Source: a virus
Strand: one strand, 5' to 3'
IMG/VR virus record: IMGVR_UViG_3300046733_000057
Location: 1 to 25,076 of that record
DNA length: 25,076 nt
In this document: in pieces, positions 1,093 through 20,545 of the stretch
Layout: each line of letters starts with the position of its first letter
Position numbering within the stretch: the stretch's first letter is position 1
The notes under the pieces: generated by a model
Told to the model about the DNA's origin: nothing
Database searches by the model: none
Seen by the model: the letters and a program-made list of their open reading frames with translations, nothing else
Translations under genes and position numbers: made by a program

Positions 1093-2841
1093 TTATCTTG
1101 GATTTTTATAACCATTGTTTGGCATATCTATAGGTCTTTGTGCTACTTCTTTAGGATTCTTATATTTTTTAGCAGCAGAAGGTCCTTCAAATCTTGCCTC
1201 TTTTCTATCATCTAATGGTAAACTAGATATTATTTTTCTTGCTTTACCTACAGATATTTTCTTATTACCTTTCTTTAAATAAACTCTACGTAGCCAAACG
1301 TGTTTACAATTTGGACCACCTTTATAAAGCCATATATTCATTTTCTCTCTACCTCCTACACCAAATCCAGGATTGTTATCTTTTTGTCCTTGTAAATCTT
1401 CCCATCTATATACCTTACCTGCTTTACTAGCATTTACCATTTTTTTACAAAACTCTCTAGTATTAGATTCTATATCACCTGCGTAAGCATATCTTATTCT
1501 AAATAAACTTGAATCTTGTTTGCTCTTTTTTCTTGCATCTCCTGTAACAACTGTAGCAAATTCAAAGTAGTTTTTAATTTCATCTTCATTATCTCCTGCA
1601 ATACTTTCATCAATTAGAATCCAATCATCACCCATTTCATCACTAATAGAAATTAAATCATCTGCTATTTCAGAATGTTCTTTGTCATTTAAAGTTTCAC
1701 TTAATTTAACTCCAGTTTCTTCTTCTCTTGTTTCTTCATCTACTACGTGCTTAATTTCAGTAAACTCTAAAGGTTGTAATGTCTTGAAGTATAAATGAAG
1801 TGATATACTATTAAAAGCTAAGATTTTATCAAAGGCATCTATTAAAAGGTTTTGGAATGGTCGTATAACAGTATTGTCCATTAACGTAGAAGCCGTTTTA
1901 AGCTCGTCTGCGTTGTTTCCTAACCCTGACTGGTCTTTGATACCTAAAAGCATCGGAGAAACGACCCTATGAGCTACCATTATCTTTTTAGTTGATTCTT
2001 CAGACAAGAATTGGTATTGGTTATGTGCATCACTAAGTTGTACAGGTTCTATACTTGCAGCACTTTCTGCATTATCATTAAAAGCTAATATGAACTTACC
2101 TGCATTACTTGACCCACTAAACTTATTATATATTCTTTGTTCTATAAGACGTCTTTCCTCTGCATTAGGAGTACCGTTATTGAAGTTAATTAACATAGAA
2201 GGAGACATACCATTTAAGATGTTGTTTAAATGAAAATTAGATACTTCTTCTTCTAACTCTGCATATTGTAAACCACCTTGGTAATCTACAGGACTATAAT
2301 AGTAATATCCTGAACGATATGGTTTAACATATAGTATTTCTATAGCTTCATTACTCGTCCCAAATGCAGGTATTCTTAAAGGTTTATCAGAAGGTTTGAT
2401 TTTATTCCAATCTTTCCAATAATAATACCCCTCTATATCTCCTTTTTCATTACACTTCTCAGCTCTAAGTGTTTCTACTGGCATATGCTCAATCTGTGCT
2501 ATCTTAGTTCTATCTTTAGAATAAATAACCTGTATAGCACATTGACCCATTAATTTTAAATCATATGATAATCTTCTTACGCTATCATTGTCAAATAATG
2601 AAATCATCTGTGCATATTGTTCTGGTTTTTTACTTGAATTAGTTGCATCTAATCCTTTACCATATATCATAGAAGATACTGCATTAATTATAGCGTTATT
2701 TGTTGGACTTCCGTTGTACCTGTCTATAAGATATTGGAAGTAGTTATTGTCCTCTCCGTAAGAAATCCAATCTCTATTGCTAACTTCTTTTATTTTAGGA
2801 CTTGTGTAAGTACTTAAATTTACTATTCTTAAATCGTTCAT
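1093..2841 (-). CDS. Portal protein with C-terminal MuF-like extension
   Basis: This 582-residue protein has a portal-like N-terminal part (about residues 20-360), including NNAIINAVSSMIYGKGL near 48-63, the wing/stem-like stretch around LNGMSPSMLINF, and VVSPMLLGIKDQSGLGN at 293-309. This last stretch resembles the portal segment preceding the long stem helix. An acidic linker follows at about 365-425. The C-terminus has a basic domain with REFCKKMV (462-469), VYRWEDL and GGPNCKHVW (508-516), which resembles the Cys/His-containing core of SPP1 gp7/Mu gpF minor head proteins. The portal forms the dodecameric DNA channel; MuF domains are injected or assembly-assisting. The ATG overlaps the stop of the 126-aa gene (ATGA). 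Unusually, the portal lies far from the terminase genes. Confidence 0.8.
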   Translation of the reverse strand: MNDLRIVNLSTYTSPKIKEVSNRDWISYGEDNNYFQYLIDRYNGSPTNNAIINAVSSMIYGKGLDATNSSKKPEQYAQMISLFDNDSVRRLSYDLKLMGQCAIQVIYSKDRTKIAQIEHMPVETLRAEKCNEKGDIEGYYYWKDWNKIKPSDKPLRIPAFGTSNEAIEILYVKPYRSGYYYYSPVDYQGGLQYAELEEEVSNFHLNNILNGMSPSMLINFNNGTPNAEERRLIEQRIYNKFSGSSNAGKFILAFNDNAESAASIEPVQLSDAHNQYQFLSEESTKKIMVAHRVVSPMLLGIKDQSGLGNNADELKTASTLMDNTVIRPFQNLLIDAFDKILAFNSISLHLYFKTLQPLEFTEIKHVVDEETREEETGVKLSETLNDKEHSEIADDLISISDEMGDDWILIDESIAGDNEDEIKNYFEFATVVTGDARKKSKQDSSLFRIRYAYAGDIESNTREFCKKMVNASKAGKVYRWEDLQGQKDNNPGFGVGGREKMNIWLYKGGPNCKHVWLRRVYLKKGNKKISVGKARKIISSLPLDDRKEARFEGPSAAKKYKNPKEVAQRPIDMPNNGYKNPR

Positions 2842-3218
2842 ATTATTATGTAATCGTTATCGTGAGAACCTGCTGTACTATCAAAAGTAAATTGACCATC
2901 ATTAATAGAATAATAATCATTGTTACCTTGGTTTATAGTTTGGTCTGTACAGAATACTTTATCTTTATATATTATATTAGAAGAAGTGTCTAACAATTCT
3001 AAGTCATATGTTCTACCCTCTTTTAATATTGAATTTCCTGAAGATGTATAAGCGTTAGAAATACTTAAATAATTGCCATCTATTGTTGGTGTTACAGTAA
3101 AACTAAATTCATCATTTAATGAATCATCTCTTACATTCAAAGTAGTTGCAGAAGTAACATAACTTCTAGGTATAATCTTTATAACTTGAGCAGATGCACT
3201 TGTAGTAAGTTTCTTCAT
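2838..3218 (-). CDS. Small virion protein of unknown function (126 aa)
   Basis: A Ser/Thr/Asn/Asp-rich, beta-strand-like protein starting MKKLTTSASAQVIKIIPRSY and ending in DNDYIII. Phrases such as DEFSFTVTPTIDGNYLSI and YDLELLDTSSNIIYKDKVF suggest an Ig-like or beta-sandwich fold, compatible with a decoration or head-tail joining protein, but I recognise no named family. It is the first gene of the unit that continues with portal, connector and fibre. It sits just behind a terminator and a copy of the bipartite late motif, whose CGATATAT box ends 4 bases before this ATG. That spacing supports the chosen start. Confidence 0.7.
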   Translation of the reverse strand: MKKLTTSASAQVIKIIPRSYVTSATTLNVRDDSLNDEFSFTVTPTIDGNYLSISNAYTSSGNSILKEGRTYDLELLDTSSNIIYKDKVFCTDQTINQGNNDYYSINDGQFTFDSTAGSHDNDYIII

Positions 3219-3222
3219 ACTT

Positions 3223-3248
3223 ATATATCGAAAAAAAAACGATATTTT
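3223..3248 (-). promoter_or_regulatory. Bipartite late promoter-like motif (copy 1)
   Basis: On the minus strand AAAATA (3248-3243), 12 bases, then CGATATAT (3230-3223), then AAGT and the ATG at 3218. The 12-base spacer is mostly T. It lies between the terminator at 3260-3286 and the 126-aa gene, so it is correctly placed to restart transcription. Four more copies in the window have the same internal spacing. Promoter activity is inferred. Confidence 0.6.
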
Positions 3249-3259
3249 GTGTTATAAGC

Positions 3260-3286
3260 AAAAAAAAAGAGGACATATAGTCCCCT
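3260..3286 (-). terminator. Rho-independent terminator after the major tail protein gene
   Basis: On the minus strand a 7-bp stem AGGGGAC / GTCCTCT (one G-U pair) with loop TATAT is followed directly by nine T. It lies 23 bases past the stop of the major tail protein gene and closes the scaffold-capsid-tail tube unit. Confidence 0.85.
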
Positions 3287-3308
3287 TAATTTTTAACTTA
3301 ATTATTTA

Positions 3309-14309: not shown

Positions 14310-14313
14310 ATAT

Positions 14314-14339
14314 ATATATCGAAATTTCTAAGCTATTTT
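14314..14339 (-). promoter_or_regulatory. Bipartite late promoter-like motif (copy 4)
   Basis: Minus strand AAAATA (14339-14334), 12 bases, CGATATAT (14321-14314), then ATAT and the tail chaperone ATG at 14309. It sits directly after the terminator at 14352-14378, so it should start the seven-gene tail unit. Confidence 0.65.
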
Positions 14340-14351
14340 TGACATATACAT

Positions 14352-14378
14352 AAAAAAAAAGCAGCCATTTCTGACTGC
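14352..14378 (-). terminator. Rho-independent terminator ending the terminase unit
   Basis: Minus strand stem GCAGTC / GGCTGC (6 bp, one T-G pair) with loop AGAAAT, followed directly by nine T. It lies 25 bases after the 34-aa gene and before the late motif that begins the tail unit. Confidence 0.85.
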
Positions 14379-14402
14379 ATACAAACAATAAACTAATAAA
14401 GT

Positions 14403-14507
14403 TTAGAAACGTATTGTTAAAAGTATAGTTAATACTAGAGCTATAACATAAAAGCTAATTAGCCATTTCCAGTTGTTTGGGTCTTGTTGTAAGAATTTCT
14501 TTATCAT
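14403..14507 (-). CDS. Small single-pass membrane peptide (34 aa)
   Basis: A 34-codon frame with a soluble start MIKKFLQQDPNNWKWL and one membrane segment (ISFYVIALVLTILLTI), ending RF. It fits exactly between the 49-aa gene and the terminator. Tiny membrane peptides like this are common in phages and may act on the host envelope or membrane enzymes. No family is known to me. Confidence 0.6.
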   Translation of the reverse strand: MIKKFLQQDPNNWKWLISFYVIALVLTILLTIRF

Positions 14508-14527
14508 TTTTTGTTTTTATTATTTTA

Positions 14528-14677
14528 CTATTGTATTTTAATACCATCTGGTGTAGCAATAAAACCATCTCCTACTTGTTGGATAAGATTTCTAGCTATG
14601 TTTATGTCATCAATATAAACAACACCTTGTACTCCATTTGAGTAAATACCAACTACTTTTAAATATATTTTTTTCAT
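14528..14677 (-). CDS. Small hypothetical protein (49 aa)
   Basis: The frame reads MKKIYLKVVGIYSNGVQGVV, then IDDINIARNLIQQVGDGFIA and ends TPDGIKIQ, a compact beta-alpha-beta-like domain. An upstream TTG would extend it to 62 residues, but that extension lies inside the -7 promoter box at 14706-14713. The ATG at 14677, preceded by the A-rich leader AAAACAAA, is therefore the likely start. The promoter suggests expression separate from the terminase genes, possibly early. Family not recognised. Confidence 0.65.
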   Translation of the reverse strand: MKKIYLKVVGIYSNGVQGVVYIDDINIARNLIQQVGDGFIATPDGIKIQ

Positions 14678-14705
14678 TTTGTTTTGTTTTAGTATTAATA
14701 TACAG

Positions 14706-14736
14706 CTAATATACAACTATTTATTTAATTAACAAA
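14706..14736 (-). promoter_or_regulatory. Bacteroidetes-type promoter (TTTG - 19 - TATATTAG)
   Basis: Minus strand TTTG at 14736-14733, a 19-base spacer, and TATATTAG at 14713-14706. The Bacteroidetes primary sigma consensus is TTTG, about 19-21 bases, TAnnTTTG; only one position of the -7 box differs. Transcription would start near 14699 and read the 49-aa and 34-aa genes up to the terminator. The promoter before the non-coding RNA has the same -7 box and spacing. Confidence 0.7.
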
Positions 14737-14764
14737 TTTTAATAACTTTTTTTTAAATATTTTT

Positions 14765-14881
14765 TTATTTCTCTAGTTCCCTTCTGTCTATCTCCTCTAA
14801 TAATGCTTGAGCATATTTGATAGATGACCTAAGTTCTCCTTGAAGCTGTGCGTCTGTAAAATTTGGTATATCGTATATCAT
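14765..14881 (-). CDS. Small hypothetical protein (38 aa) after terminase
   Basis: A short acidic helical protein: MIYDIPNFTDAQLQGELRSS followed by IKYAQALLEEIDRRELEK. It starts 41 bases after the large terminase stop. The amphipathic helix and codon use support a real gene, and similar 35-45-residue helical proteins follow terminase genes in other phages. No function assigned. Confidence 0.55.
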   Translation of the reverse strand: MIYDIPNFTDAQLQGELRSSIKYAQALLEEIDRRELEK

Positions 14882-14922
14882 ACCATCAAAGATATTAAAA
14901 AATGTTAATAATACAAACTTAA

Positions 14923-18271: not shown

Positions 18272-18436
18272 TTAGATATTAGTTTCTTTAATATTATTTT
18301 TATTTATAATATTATTTTCTAAATCGAGTATAGTGTATCCTTGTTCTGCAAGAAGTTTAATAGCTTTTTTTTGTTCTTTTACTCTTTCTCTAATTCTAAA
18401 TGTTTCAAAAATTTCATTACTTATTGGTTCTGACAT
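18272..18436 (-). CDS. Small hypothetical protein (54 aa) downstream of the non-coding RNA
   Basis: The sequence starts MSEPISNEIFETFRIRERVK and continues with EQKKAIKLLAEQGYTILDLE, ending in an Asn-rich tail. It looks like a small soluble helical protein with good codon use. It is the first gene after the structured RNA, about 30 bases past its closing helix. It may share a transcript with it, in which case the RNA could act as a leader. Confidence 0.6.
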   Translation of the reverse strand: MSEPISNEIFETFRIRERVKEQKKAIKLLAEQGYTILDLENNIINKNNIKETNI

Positions 18437-18462
18437 AATTTTATTTTTTAGTTTGTTTATTA

Positions 18463-18757
18463 AATACTAAGATTAGTTAATTGCTATTGCAAATACAACT
18501 GCCATATTTGTTTTCAAGTTCGCCCATAGACAGGTTACGATTTCATTTCGTTATTAATCTTTCAAATAACTCCTATACCTCGCTTGGGTATGTCTATTCT
18601 CATAGAGCTTGTATAACTATCTTTTCCCTAGCACTCCCTAAGGTGCGTACTTACTTAAGTTTCAGTCGCTATTCAGTAATAAGCATCGTTTCCAAGTTAT
18701 GCGCCTTGTCTCCCTATGCGTTTTGCCTAATCTCAGTAAATTAATGTACGTTTGTTA
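18463..18757 (-). ncRNA. Candidate structured non-coding RNA (about 275-295 nt), family unknown
   Basis: This stretch has no credible protein frame and is clearly richer in G+C (about 38% by hand count over 18481-18740) than flanking non-coding DNA. On the minus strand a 12-bp closing helix joins TACTGAGATTAG (18738-18727) to CTAATCTTAGTA (18476-18465), with one G-U pair. Inside are a 7-bp helix 18597-18591 / 18532-18526 that encloses hairpins 18590-18587/18579-18576 and 18570-18565/18555-18550, and hairpins 18510-18505/18495-18490 and 18646-18643/18634-18631. A possible pseudoknot is formed by 18708-18705/18696-18693 with 18702-18699/18686-18683. Unpaired segments are rich in GAAA. A strong promoter lies just upstream. 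I do not match it to tmRNA, 6S, RNase P, group I intron or any phage RNA I know. Confidence 0.65.
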
Positions 18758-18763
18758 ATAATG

Positions 18764-18794
18764 CTAATATAAGTAATAAAATGTTATTAACAAA
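18764..18794 (-). promoter_or_regulatory. Bacteroidetes-type promoter for the structured RNA (TTTG - 19 - TATATTAG)
   Basis: Minus strand TTTG (18794-18791), 19-base spacer, TATATTAG (18771-18764), predicting a start near 18757, about 20 bases before the closing helix. The first nine bases TTTGTTAAT, the spacer length and the -7 box are the same as in the promoter at 14706-14736. Confidence 0.75.
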
Positions 18795-18796
18795 AT

Positions 18797-19231
18797 TTAA
18801 TTATGTATATCTTTATTTATAATACTAGCGTGTTTTTCTTTTAGAAGATATACAGGTTTTAATAATCGTTTCTTAGTCCACATTGTAGTATCAGGACAAT
18901 ACATCTCTACAGGTTCAGGCATCTCTAAATAGTTTAACCAATACAAGTAGTTTCCTTTAGGGTCTGATACAAAATAGAGCTTAACTATTTCAGAATCCAT
19001 ACTTATAAGTTGTTCATACTTAAATACTTCTAACATCTTTTCTTCATAGTATTTATTTCTAAATTTCATTTCTATTACGCATCTATGTCCCTTAGGAGTA
19101 TATCCTTCAGCATCATAATGCTCAAAGCCATTACCTGACCATTTTAAATCCCAGTTATCTAAGTTTAATACCTTGACTACTGTTTGTTCATATAAGTGTA
19201 TCTTATTTAATCCCATTAGCGTAAATATCAT
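18797..19231 (-). CDS. Putative PD-(D/E)XK nuclease (144 aa)
   Basis: The core reads HLYEQTVVKVLN, then GFEHYDAEGYTPKGHRCVIE and MKFRNKYY. An Asp (YDAEG) followed about 13 residues later by E-M-K in a strand fits the D...ExK arrangement of PD-(D/E)XK nucleases, with an earlier Glu (YEQ) as the usual additional acidic residue. The size is like Holliday-junction resolvase or VRR-type phage enzymes. The frame has two starts: ATG at 19231 and a better-spaced ATG at 19213 (MGLNKIHLYEQ) that overlaps the upstream gene by only 11 bases. Last gene before the non-coding RNA promoter. Confidence 0.65.
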   Translation of the reverse strand: MIFTLMGLNKIHLYEQTVVKVLNLDNWDLKWSGNGFEHYDAEGYTPKGHRCVIEMKFRNKYYEEKMLEVFKYEQLISMDSEIVKLYFVSDPKGNYLYWLNYLEMPEPVEMYCPDTTMWTKKRLLKPVYLLKEKHASIINKDIHN

Positions 19232-19563: not shown

Positions 19564-20066
19564 AATATATTATTTAATTCTATATGGCTTAATAAGTTTT
19601 TCTTTTCAATTACATATGCTTCTACTCTTGTCATTTTTAGATTTTTTTCTTGGAATATTATTTCGTTTGTTATAAAACCTTCAAATATATATTCAGGATA
19701 ATTACAAGTAAATAATGCAAATATCTTGCAATTACTTTTAGCATATTTAGGAATCATCAAAGGATTATTTTTGTTTCTATTAACTTTTATATCAACAGAA
19801 TATCCATTCCATACAGCATCATAATTATCTGTTTGTAATTGTTTAGATGTGTTATGTATTTTAAAATCTGGATATAAATTGTTTTCTCTAGCAAAAATAA
19901 ACTCACCACCAAAGCCAACTATATTTAATTCTACATCAGATTTAACATTTACTGTTTTATAACCATCCCAACCTGTTTTACTTTTATTGTTTTGCCTTTG
20001 CATAGCACAAAGTTCAACTATCTTTTGTTCACTTTCATCTAAAATATATATTTGATTAATTACCAC
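19560..20066 (-). CDS. Putative PD-(D/E)XK-fold endonuclease (168 aa)
   Basis: The protein contains VGFGGEFIFARENNLYPDF (about 50-68), then DNYDAVWNGYSVDIKVNR (about 80-97) and NPLMIPKYAKSNCKIFALF. Glu in GGEF, Asp in NYDAVW and the D-I-K strand (VDIKVNR) fit the E / D / (D/E)xK residues of the PD-(D/E)XK fold. The third acidic position is Asp rather than Glu. Similar proteins occur in phages as DNA-processing or host-DNA-degrading nucleases. It follows the sigma-like gene with a TAATG overlap. Activity is inferred from the motif only. Confidence 0.6.
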   Translation of the reverse strand: MVINQIYILDESEQKIVELCAMQRQNNKSKTGWDGYKTVNVKSDVELNIVGFGGEFIFARENNLYPDFKIHNTSKQLQTDNYDAVWNGYSVDIKVNRNKNNPLMIPKYAKSNCKIFALFTCNYPEYIFEGFITNEIIFQEKNLKMTRVEAYVIEKKNLLSHIELNNIL

Positions 20067-20545
20067 TATAAATTTTCTTTTAGTTTCTGTTTAACTTTCT
20101 TATAAGTATTGTATAAGCTGTAATAACTTATTTTACTTTTTCTGGATAGCTCACTTATATTAGTACCATCTTCTACTATTTCATATACTTTTTTATCGTA
20201 CCAGTACATATCTTTAAGTATCTCCTGTAGCTTCTGATAGACCTCATCATAGTTATTATGGTCAATCTCTGTAATAGGTTCTATATTTTCTAAGCTAACT
20301 AATTTAACTTTACTTTTCTTTCTAATCAAATCTACATATAAACCTCTTAATAATTTAAATACATAATAATAGTTTATTTCATCACCGTACATAAAGTCAA
20401 TACCTTTCCTGGTATTTTTGATTAAAAGAATATACATAGTTTGTACTATATCTTCAGCTTCTTCTTTGTTTAAACCTCCAAAAGTTATAACAATATCTGT
20501 CCATTGATTATGTTTCTTATACGCTATTTCTACTGGTGTTTTCAA
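20066..20545 (-). CDS. Phage-encoded RNA polymerase sigma factor-like protein
   Basis: The 159-residue protein looks like a small group-4 (ECF-like) sigma factor. A region-2-like stretch has LNKEEAEDIVQTMYILLI (the EDivQ..f/y motif) and YVFKLLRGLYVDLIRKKSK (the ..R...D..Rk.kr motif). A linker follows, then a region-4-like helix-turn-helix with KKVYEIVEDGTNISELSRKS and SYYSLYNTYKKVKQKLKE. It would direct host RNA polymerase to phage promoters. The five AAAATA-12-CGATATAT motifs in front of late units are candidate targets. The N-terminus is divergent, so a non-sigma DNA-binding role is possible. TAATG coupling with the next gene; ATGA with the ATPase. Confidence 0.7.
   Translation of the reverse strand: MKTPVEIAYKKHNQWTDIVITFGGLNKEEAEDIVQTMYILLIKNTRKGIDFMYGDEINYYYVFKLLRGLYVDLIRKKSKVKLVSLENIEPITEIDHNNYDEVYQKLQEILKDMYWYDKKVYEIVEDGTNISELSRKSKISYYSLYNTYKKVKQKLKENL

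Follow-up and report, generated by a model that had tools for sequence, protein, structure and literature searches.

A candidate family of structured, mobile non-coding RNAs in phages of probable Bacteroidota hosts

To our knowledge, the list of structured non-coding RNAs from phages is short, and no function is known for the large, ornate kind. The phi29 pRNA, of 174 nt, is needed for packaging. ROOL and GOLLD are large ornate RNAs of phages and prophages whose function is unknown and for which models exist in Rfam (PMC12286853). The rRNA precursor of E. coli is closed by a leader–trailer helix of more than 17 bp, and its boxA serves to recruit the Nus complex (PMC10250234). The RNA described here resembles ROOL and GOLLD in being phage-borne, non-coding and apparently non-essential, with an elaborate, covariation-supported fold that includes a pseudoknot. 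It is smaller than these (~300 nt compared to 660–800 nt or more) and has no match to the covariance models of either; it also differs in its probable Bacteroidota phage carriers, the lack of tRNA genes nearby, its boxA start and its end-closing helix. A homo-oligomeric RNA cage is a further mark of the ROOL/GOLLD class. Like phi29 pRNA it is a phage-encoded structured RNA with a closing helix, but it is absent from sister phages and matches nothing in Rfam. A long helix joining the 5′ and 3′ ends is also a feature of retron msr-msd RNA; a retron is unlikely here, as no reverse transcriptase was seen beside the RNA, either among ten window proteins around it (Pfam and PHROGs) or, by eye, among the neighboring ORFs of its relatives. 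The likeness to an rRNA unit lies in the order of a promoter, then a boxA of the Bacteroidota 16S type, then a long helix joining the ends, and is one of architecture only: no rRNA sequence lies inside, and the boxA overlaps the closing helix. We read the locus, as probable rather than secure, as a stand-alone, mobile, accessory gene for a trans-acting phage RNA that is transcribed and closed like a miniature rRNA unit.

The window, by which we mean the whole 25,076-nucleotide stretch analyzed, is a 25-kb phage contig with all main genes on the minus strand. Between the gene for a 144-aa protein (18797–19231, minus strand) and a 54-aa ORF (18272–18436, minus strand), both of them separate from the RNA, lie 360 bp without a conserved frame. 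The preliminary description had named a conserved protein frame through the region as evidence against an RNA, and comparison with relatives reveals none: their frames are broken by indels, and an 87-aa plus-strand frame in the gap is not kept. The stretch is GC-rich, as had been noted (37%–38% in 200-bp windows, compared to 21%–28% on both flanks). It is not strictly the only gap over 300 bases that it was said to be, since the 613 bases at 14310–14922, between TerL and the gene for a 216-aa protein, hold only ORFs of 34–62 aa. Compared with dinucleotide shuffles, the minus strand has the more stable fold (z −2.4; 3/200), while the plus strand folds no better than shuffles (z −0.7). The RNA is encoded on the minus strand, for which the preliminary description had given no strand at all, and spans ~300 nt from a predicted 5′ end near 18759, placed from the promoter position only, to 18459, where the 3′ strand of its terminal helix ends.

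The near-consensus promoter that had been proposed does lie just upstream of the RNA on the minus strand (18764–18794), with TTTG at 18794–18791, a 19-nt spacer, and TATATTAG at 18771–18764. It agrees with the sigma-A consensus of Bacteroidota, which is TAnnTTTG at −12 to −5 (PMC9723704). Equivalent elements precede the homologous RNAs that we inspected, including members with unrelated neighbors, and the promoter is conserved in relatives without the RNA. No obvious terminator follows the RNA. Among isolates, the terminase is most similar (49% identity) to those of Flavobacterium psychrophilum phages, and this, together with the fit of the promoter, suggests a Bacteroidota host, probably a flavobacterial one.

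Exact DNA patterns from the conserved core, followed by profile searches, uncovered ~22 further distinct relatives with the same fold, in four groups, all in uncultivated viral contigs (L004, L010, L155, L180, L196, L209, L218, L242, L252/L248, L264, L265–L267, L270–L272, L274–L276 and L323, and the more distant L319/L321 and L318/L320/L328). Covariance model R1 scores 206–312 bits against the main groups, most of whose sequences it was trained on, and 311 bits against the window (18450–18752), likewise part of its training set; the distant group D, absent from that set, scores 60 and 51 bits. A final viral scan found no member outside the known groups. No Rfam 15 family exceeds its gathering threshold in the window or in 11 loci with relatives; permissive scans return chance matches only, and ARAGORN detects no tRNA or tmRNA in the window or in 20 loci with relatives. 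By blastn, the window RNA has only short chance matches to phage and plasmid records, as do members of the other groups to phages, with no copy in 50,697 phage records. One degenerate pattern run against 84,980 species genomes gave 34 matches and no credible copy; the best of these by profile (L295) sits in an ABC-transporter-like frame, and two others (L287 and L311) hold no family sequence. The covariance model had a single match in 395 Bacteroidia genomes (E 0.0096 per genome), within a 502-aa coding frame, and no match in half of one F. psychrophilum phage genome. A literature search of limited reach found no earlier description of this RNA. The preliminary description had proposed a non-coding RNA that is structured, has a promoter to itself and belongs to an unknown family, and this agrees with these searches, with the promoters upstream of inspected relatives, with the lack of a conserved frame, and with the compensatory changes reported below; the RNA matches no known RNA family and would constitute a new one.

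The fold common to the relatives comprises a terminal helix, P1, of 17–21 bp, branched helices P2–P9, and a pseudoknot. A closing helix of 12 bp linking bases 262 apart had been pointed out, and it is found on the minus strand, with 18738–18727 paired to 18476–18465. P1 is longer than this: in the window it extends outward by another 5 bp (18745–18741 with 18463–18459), such that its 5′ strand (18727–18745, minus strand; outer part 18745–18741, inner part 18738–18727) pairs with its 3′ strand (18459–18476, minus strand), and in relatives it reaches ~21 bp. The inner 7-bp helix that had also been described (GCGACUG/CAGUUGU) appears in the single-sequence fold, but only the closest group retains it, and it falls outside the consensus. 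Helices P2–P6, which follow, are all on the minus strand. The P2 5′ strand, CAUA (18715–18718), pairs with 18503–18506, and its variants across groups (CAUA/UAUG, CUCA/UGAG, CACA/UGUG) include two pairs with E < 0.05 in the phylogeny-aware test described below. The P3 5′ strand, CAAG (18705–18708), pairs with 18515–18518; CAAG/CUUG, CAAA/UUUG and CUAG/CUAG occur, 100% of cells are paired, and one pair has E < 0.05. The 5′ strands of P4a and P4b (CAUA and CUUG, 18693–18701) pair with 18601–18604 and 18608–18611; 91% of P4a cells are paired, with two-sided changes, and one P4 pair has E < 0.05. Hairpin P5 (ACU/AGU, 18649–18666), with a GAAA-containing loop, is confined to group A and part of group B, where ACC/GGU, GCC/GGC and GCU/AGC are found as well. 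Hairpin P6 (GCAC/GUGC, 18631–18646), with UUAG or UUCG in its loop, changes to GUAC/GUAC and is replaced by another hairpin in group C.

The possible pseudoknot of the preliminary description is there. It lies within 18526–18597 on the minus strand, 18597–18592 (AUAGAC) pairing with 18531–18526 (GUCUAU), and encloses P7, P8 and the 5′ strand of P9; its variants (AUAGAC/GUCUAU, GAUAGC/GCUAU and others) include three pairs with E < 0.05. Hairpin P7 (ACC-CAAGCGA-GGU, 18577–18589, minus strand) is the most conserved stretch and is invariant, so that it shows conservation only, without covariation. P9 (18520–18540, minus strand), whose loop contains a pseudoknot strand, combines an invariant UCG/CGA, for which the evidence is again conservation only, with CC/GG in group A and GG/CC elsewhere. 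P8 (GUUAU/AUAAC, 18550–18570, minus strand; one pair with E < 0.05) is a peripheral domain of variable size. Its loop is deleted in L266 and L276, and a larger domain takes the place of the hairpin in L323 (838–1164) and group D (L319 and L318), as expected of a peripheral domain.

We used a sequence-only MAFFT alignment of 20 sequences (A1), with a consensus structure of 59 pairs, to measure compensatory change. Here 86.6% of cells are paired, and two-sided compensatory changes are seen in 32 of the 59 pairs (shuffle mean 18.7). Covariation is 0.318, compared to 0.158 for shuffled alignments and at most 0.132 with slid partners, although these same sequences guided the drawing of the structure, and its edge over the slid versions is thus partly by construction. 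None of 500 shuffles match the observed values, the pair-type count excepted. In a phylogeny-aware test (our own R-scape-like script, with substitutions resampled on the tree), 8/59 pairs have E < 0.05, in P2, P3, P4, P8 and the pseudoknot, compared to 0–4 in slid controls; 56 of 62,481 column pairs outside the structure pass the same threshold. The number is only eight because many pairs never vary and MAFFT misregisters P1. Compensatory changes in homologues, the check that the preliminary description had proposed, are present on both counts. P1 was tested by an alignment-free duplex test with 2,000 shuffles per member. In 20/20 members, the pairing of its ends outdoes at least 99% of shuffles (0–17 of 2,000; 1 of 2,000 for the window), so that a long helix of the leader–trailer type, 17–21 bp, is found in every member tested, and the paired sequences differ between groups yet stay complementary. 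Group D came to light before the pseudoknotted structure had been drawn up but played no part in drawing it, and by eye it keeps P1 (AAGTTC..TTGAGATAG / CTATCTCA..TTGAACTT), P4 and the pseudoknot.

Among pair cells, G-U outnumbers A-C by 68 to 35, which fits an RNA of the minus strand better than a strand-symmetric DNA hairpin. The balance bears on whether the element could serve replication, recombination or packaging, as a pRNA-like RNA or as a site in the DNA (an origin or packaging site). Such a role would suit the closing helix and the replication, terminase or capsid genes that neighbor the RNA, but the pair cells speak against the DNA version, the position roams, and the RNA is dispensable among near-identical phages. 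We regard this as very unlikely; the packaging or replication RNA raised in the preliminary description is disfavored by its clean absence from a near-identical phage.

The pattern of presence and absence comes from 146 related viral loci gathered via the 144-aa and helicase proteins, among which the RNA occurs only in the window's clade. In L008, whose flanking proteins are 99%–100% identical to those of the window, the ~301 bp of the RNA are cleanly absent, and the promoter and 54-aa gene are kept; in relatives whose 144-aa proteins are ~85% identical, the same promoter is followed by a short leader or another ORF (L034). None of 25 long contigs from RNA-less relatives carries the RNA elsewhere by covariance-model search. 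Where present, it is always in sense, and each of nine records searched whole has a single copy. It follows the 144-aa homologue, its commonest upstream neighbor, in, for example, the window, L218, L196, L180, L252 and L276; TerL in L209, L265, L271, L272 and L274; the major capsid gene in L242 and L264; and a NinG-like gene in L270. In L267 and L275 it stands before the tail tube region. The RNA of L209 is 90% identical to that of the window and its TerL just 29%, which indicates that the RNA is not tied to the phage backbone in its movement. Mobility, clean presence or absence, and inverted ends of 17–21 bp would also be expected of a non-autonomous, MITE-like transposon, with the P1 strands as terminal inverted repeats. 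A single transposon family should keep the sequence of those repeats, but the ends differ between groups, both co-changing; the internal helices covary, there is one copy per record, and no transposase was recognized nearby. A transposon is thus the least credible of the alternatives, and we give it hardly any weight.

In most members the next ORF starts 12–25 nt past P1, as might be expected if the RNA were a cis-regulatory leader of the following gene, either riboswitch-like or a stabilizing 5′ UTR. This distance is ~120–170 nt in L267 and L275, the ORFs after the RNA are unrelated between phages with no constant partner gene, and the 54-aa ORF is found with or without the RNA (L008 has it without). 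A leader role is improbable in general, and as a leader of the 54-aa gene, which had been suggested, the RNA is an unlikely candidate because the following ORFs are unrelated.

In most members, the RNA opens with boxA, the antitermination signal also found in rRNA leaders of Bacteroidota. Of the 24 Bacteroidia 16S leaders that we examined, nearly all have GTTCTTTGA, ~95–210 nt upstream of 16S and often followed by AAAATATTG, and it occurs with 0–1 mismatch at the RNA start in 15 of 19 members tested. It is decayed in the window, where GTACATTAA (18741–18749, minus strand) has three mismatches, a chance level shared by L010. Leaders of RNA-less relatives have at least four mismatches and never 0–1. 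The rRNA-like architecture is thus observed, and by analogy the RNA may use the antitermination pathway.

This raises the main rival explanation, that the RNA is a cis antitermination element (putRNA- or EAR-like), the nascent boxA RNA modifying RNA polymerase for read-through of a long late operon. Like the HK022 putRNA and EAR antiterminator RNAs, the RNA here is structured and lies near a phage transcript start, with a possible link to antitermination, and structured nascent RNA does act in this way in HK022 (PMC9378689). The boxA-like 5′ end of most members fits such a role, as does the setting of the RNA, always in sense inside long operons with its own promoter and no obvious terminator. 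HK022 put is short and cis-acting, whereas this RNA measures ~300 nt, has its two ends joined, and is dispensable: a near-identical phage and many related ones lack it and keep the promoter and operon. Its depth in the operon varies, the window's boxA is decayed, and folding can be completed only once ~290 nt have been made, since the two ends pair with each other. We consider cis antitermination unlikely, if less so than the other alternatives.

The reading as a trans-acting accessory gene suggests the following course. The gene would be an accessory cassette of Bacteroidota (probably flavobacterial) phages, in effect an RNA "moron". Transcription by the host sigma-A RNA polymerase would begin at the dedicated promoter, and in most members boxA, just after the start, may load the host Nus antitermination complex, such that ~300 untranslated bases could be copied in full, as with rRNA. 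The predicted transcript would have a core in which P2–P9 and the pseudoknot hold conserved unpaired segments. Its ends would close as the 17–21-bp helix, where the RNA might be cut from the polycistronic transcript in the manner of the pre-rRNA leader–trailer helix, and the stable RNA or RNP could then act in trans on a host component. Since no partner gene is constant, it is solely from mobility and dispensability that a role in trans is suggested. Host takeover and counter-defence are usual roles of phage accessory cassettes, and one or the other is most likely here, our leading guess given that the RNA is dispensable and spreads between unrelated phages; of the roles guessed at in the preliminary description, a regulatory or decoy RNA may be a candidate. 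More tentatively, and as a conjecture that is less likely than not, the family could represent a new class: a ~300-nt trans-acting phage RNA with an rRNA antitermination signal and an rRNA-like closing helix around a stable RNP or ribozyme-like core, which disables a host system (a defence, or the Nus/ribosome machinery) and spreads as an RNA-only moron. A compact, covariation-supported family with a natural, near-identical phage pair differing in its presence makes the question of function directly askable. A boxA at the RNA start would mean that a phage draws on a signal of host rRNA transcription to make a non-coding RNA of its own. Accessory cassettes that consist of RNA alone also escape protein-based searches for counter-defence genes.

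The surroundings of the RNA offer several further observations. Its site looks like a cargo hotspot, as L034 has in the same place, behind the same promoter, a ~170-aa ORF (within 2550–3300). The 144-aa protein upstream has no Pfam or PHROG match and is nuclease-like by eye, with a PD-(D/E)XK-like stretch (VIEMKFR). A 159-aa protein of the window (20066–20545, minus strand) is weakly similar to a phage sigma factor (phrog_1740, E 5.5e-4) and has a sigma-like region by eye; its homologues lie upstream of the RNA in many related phages.
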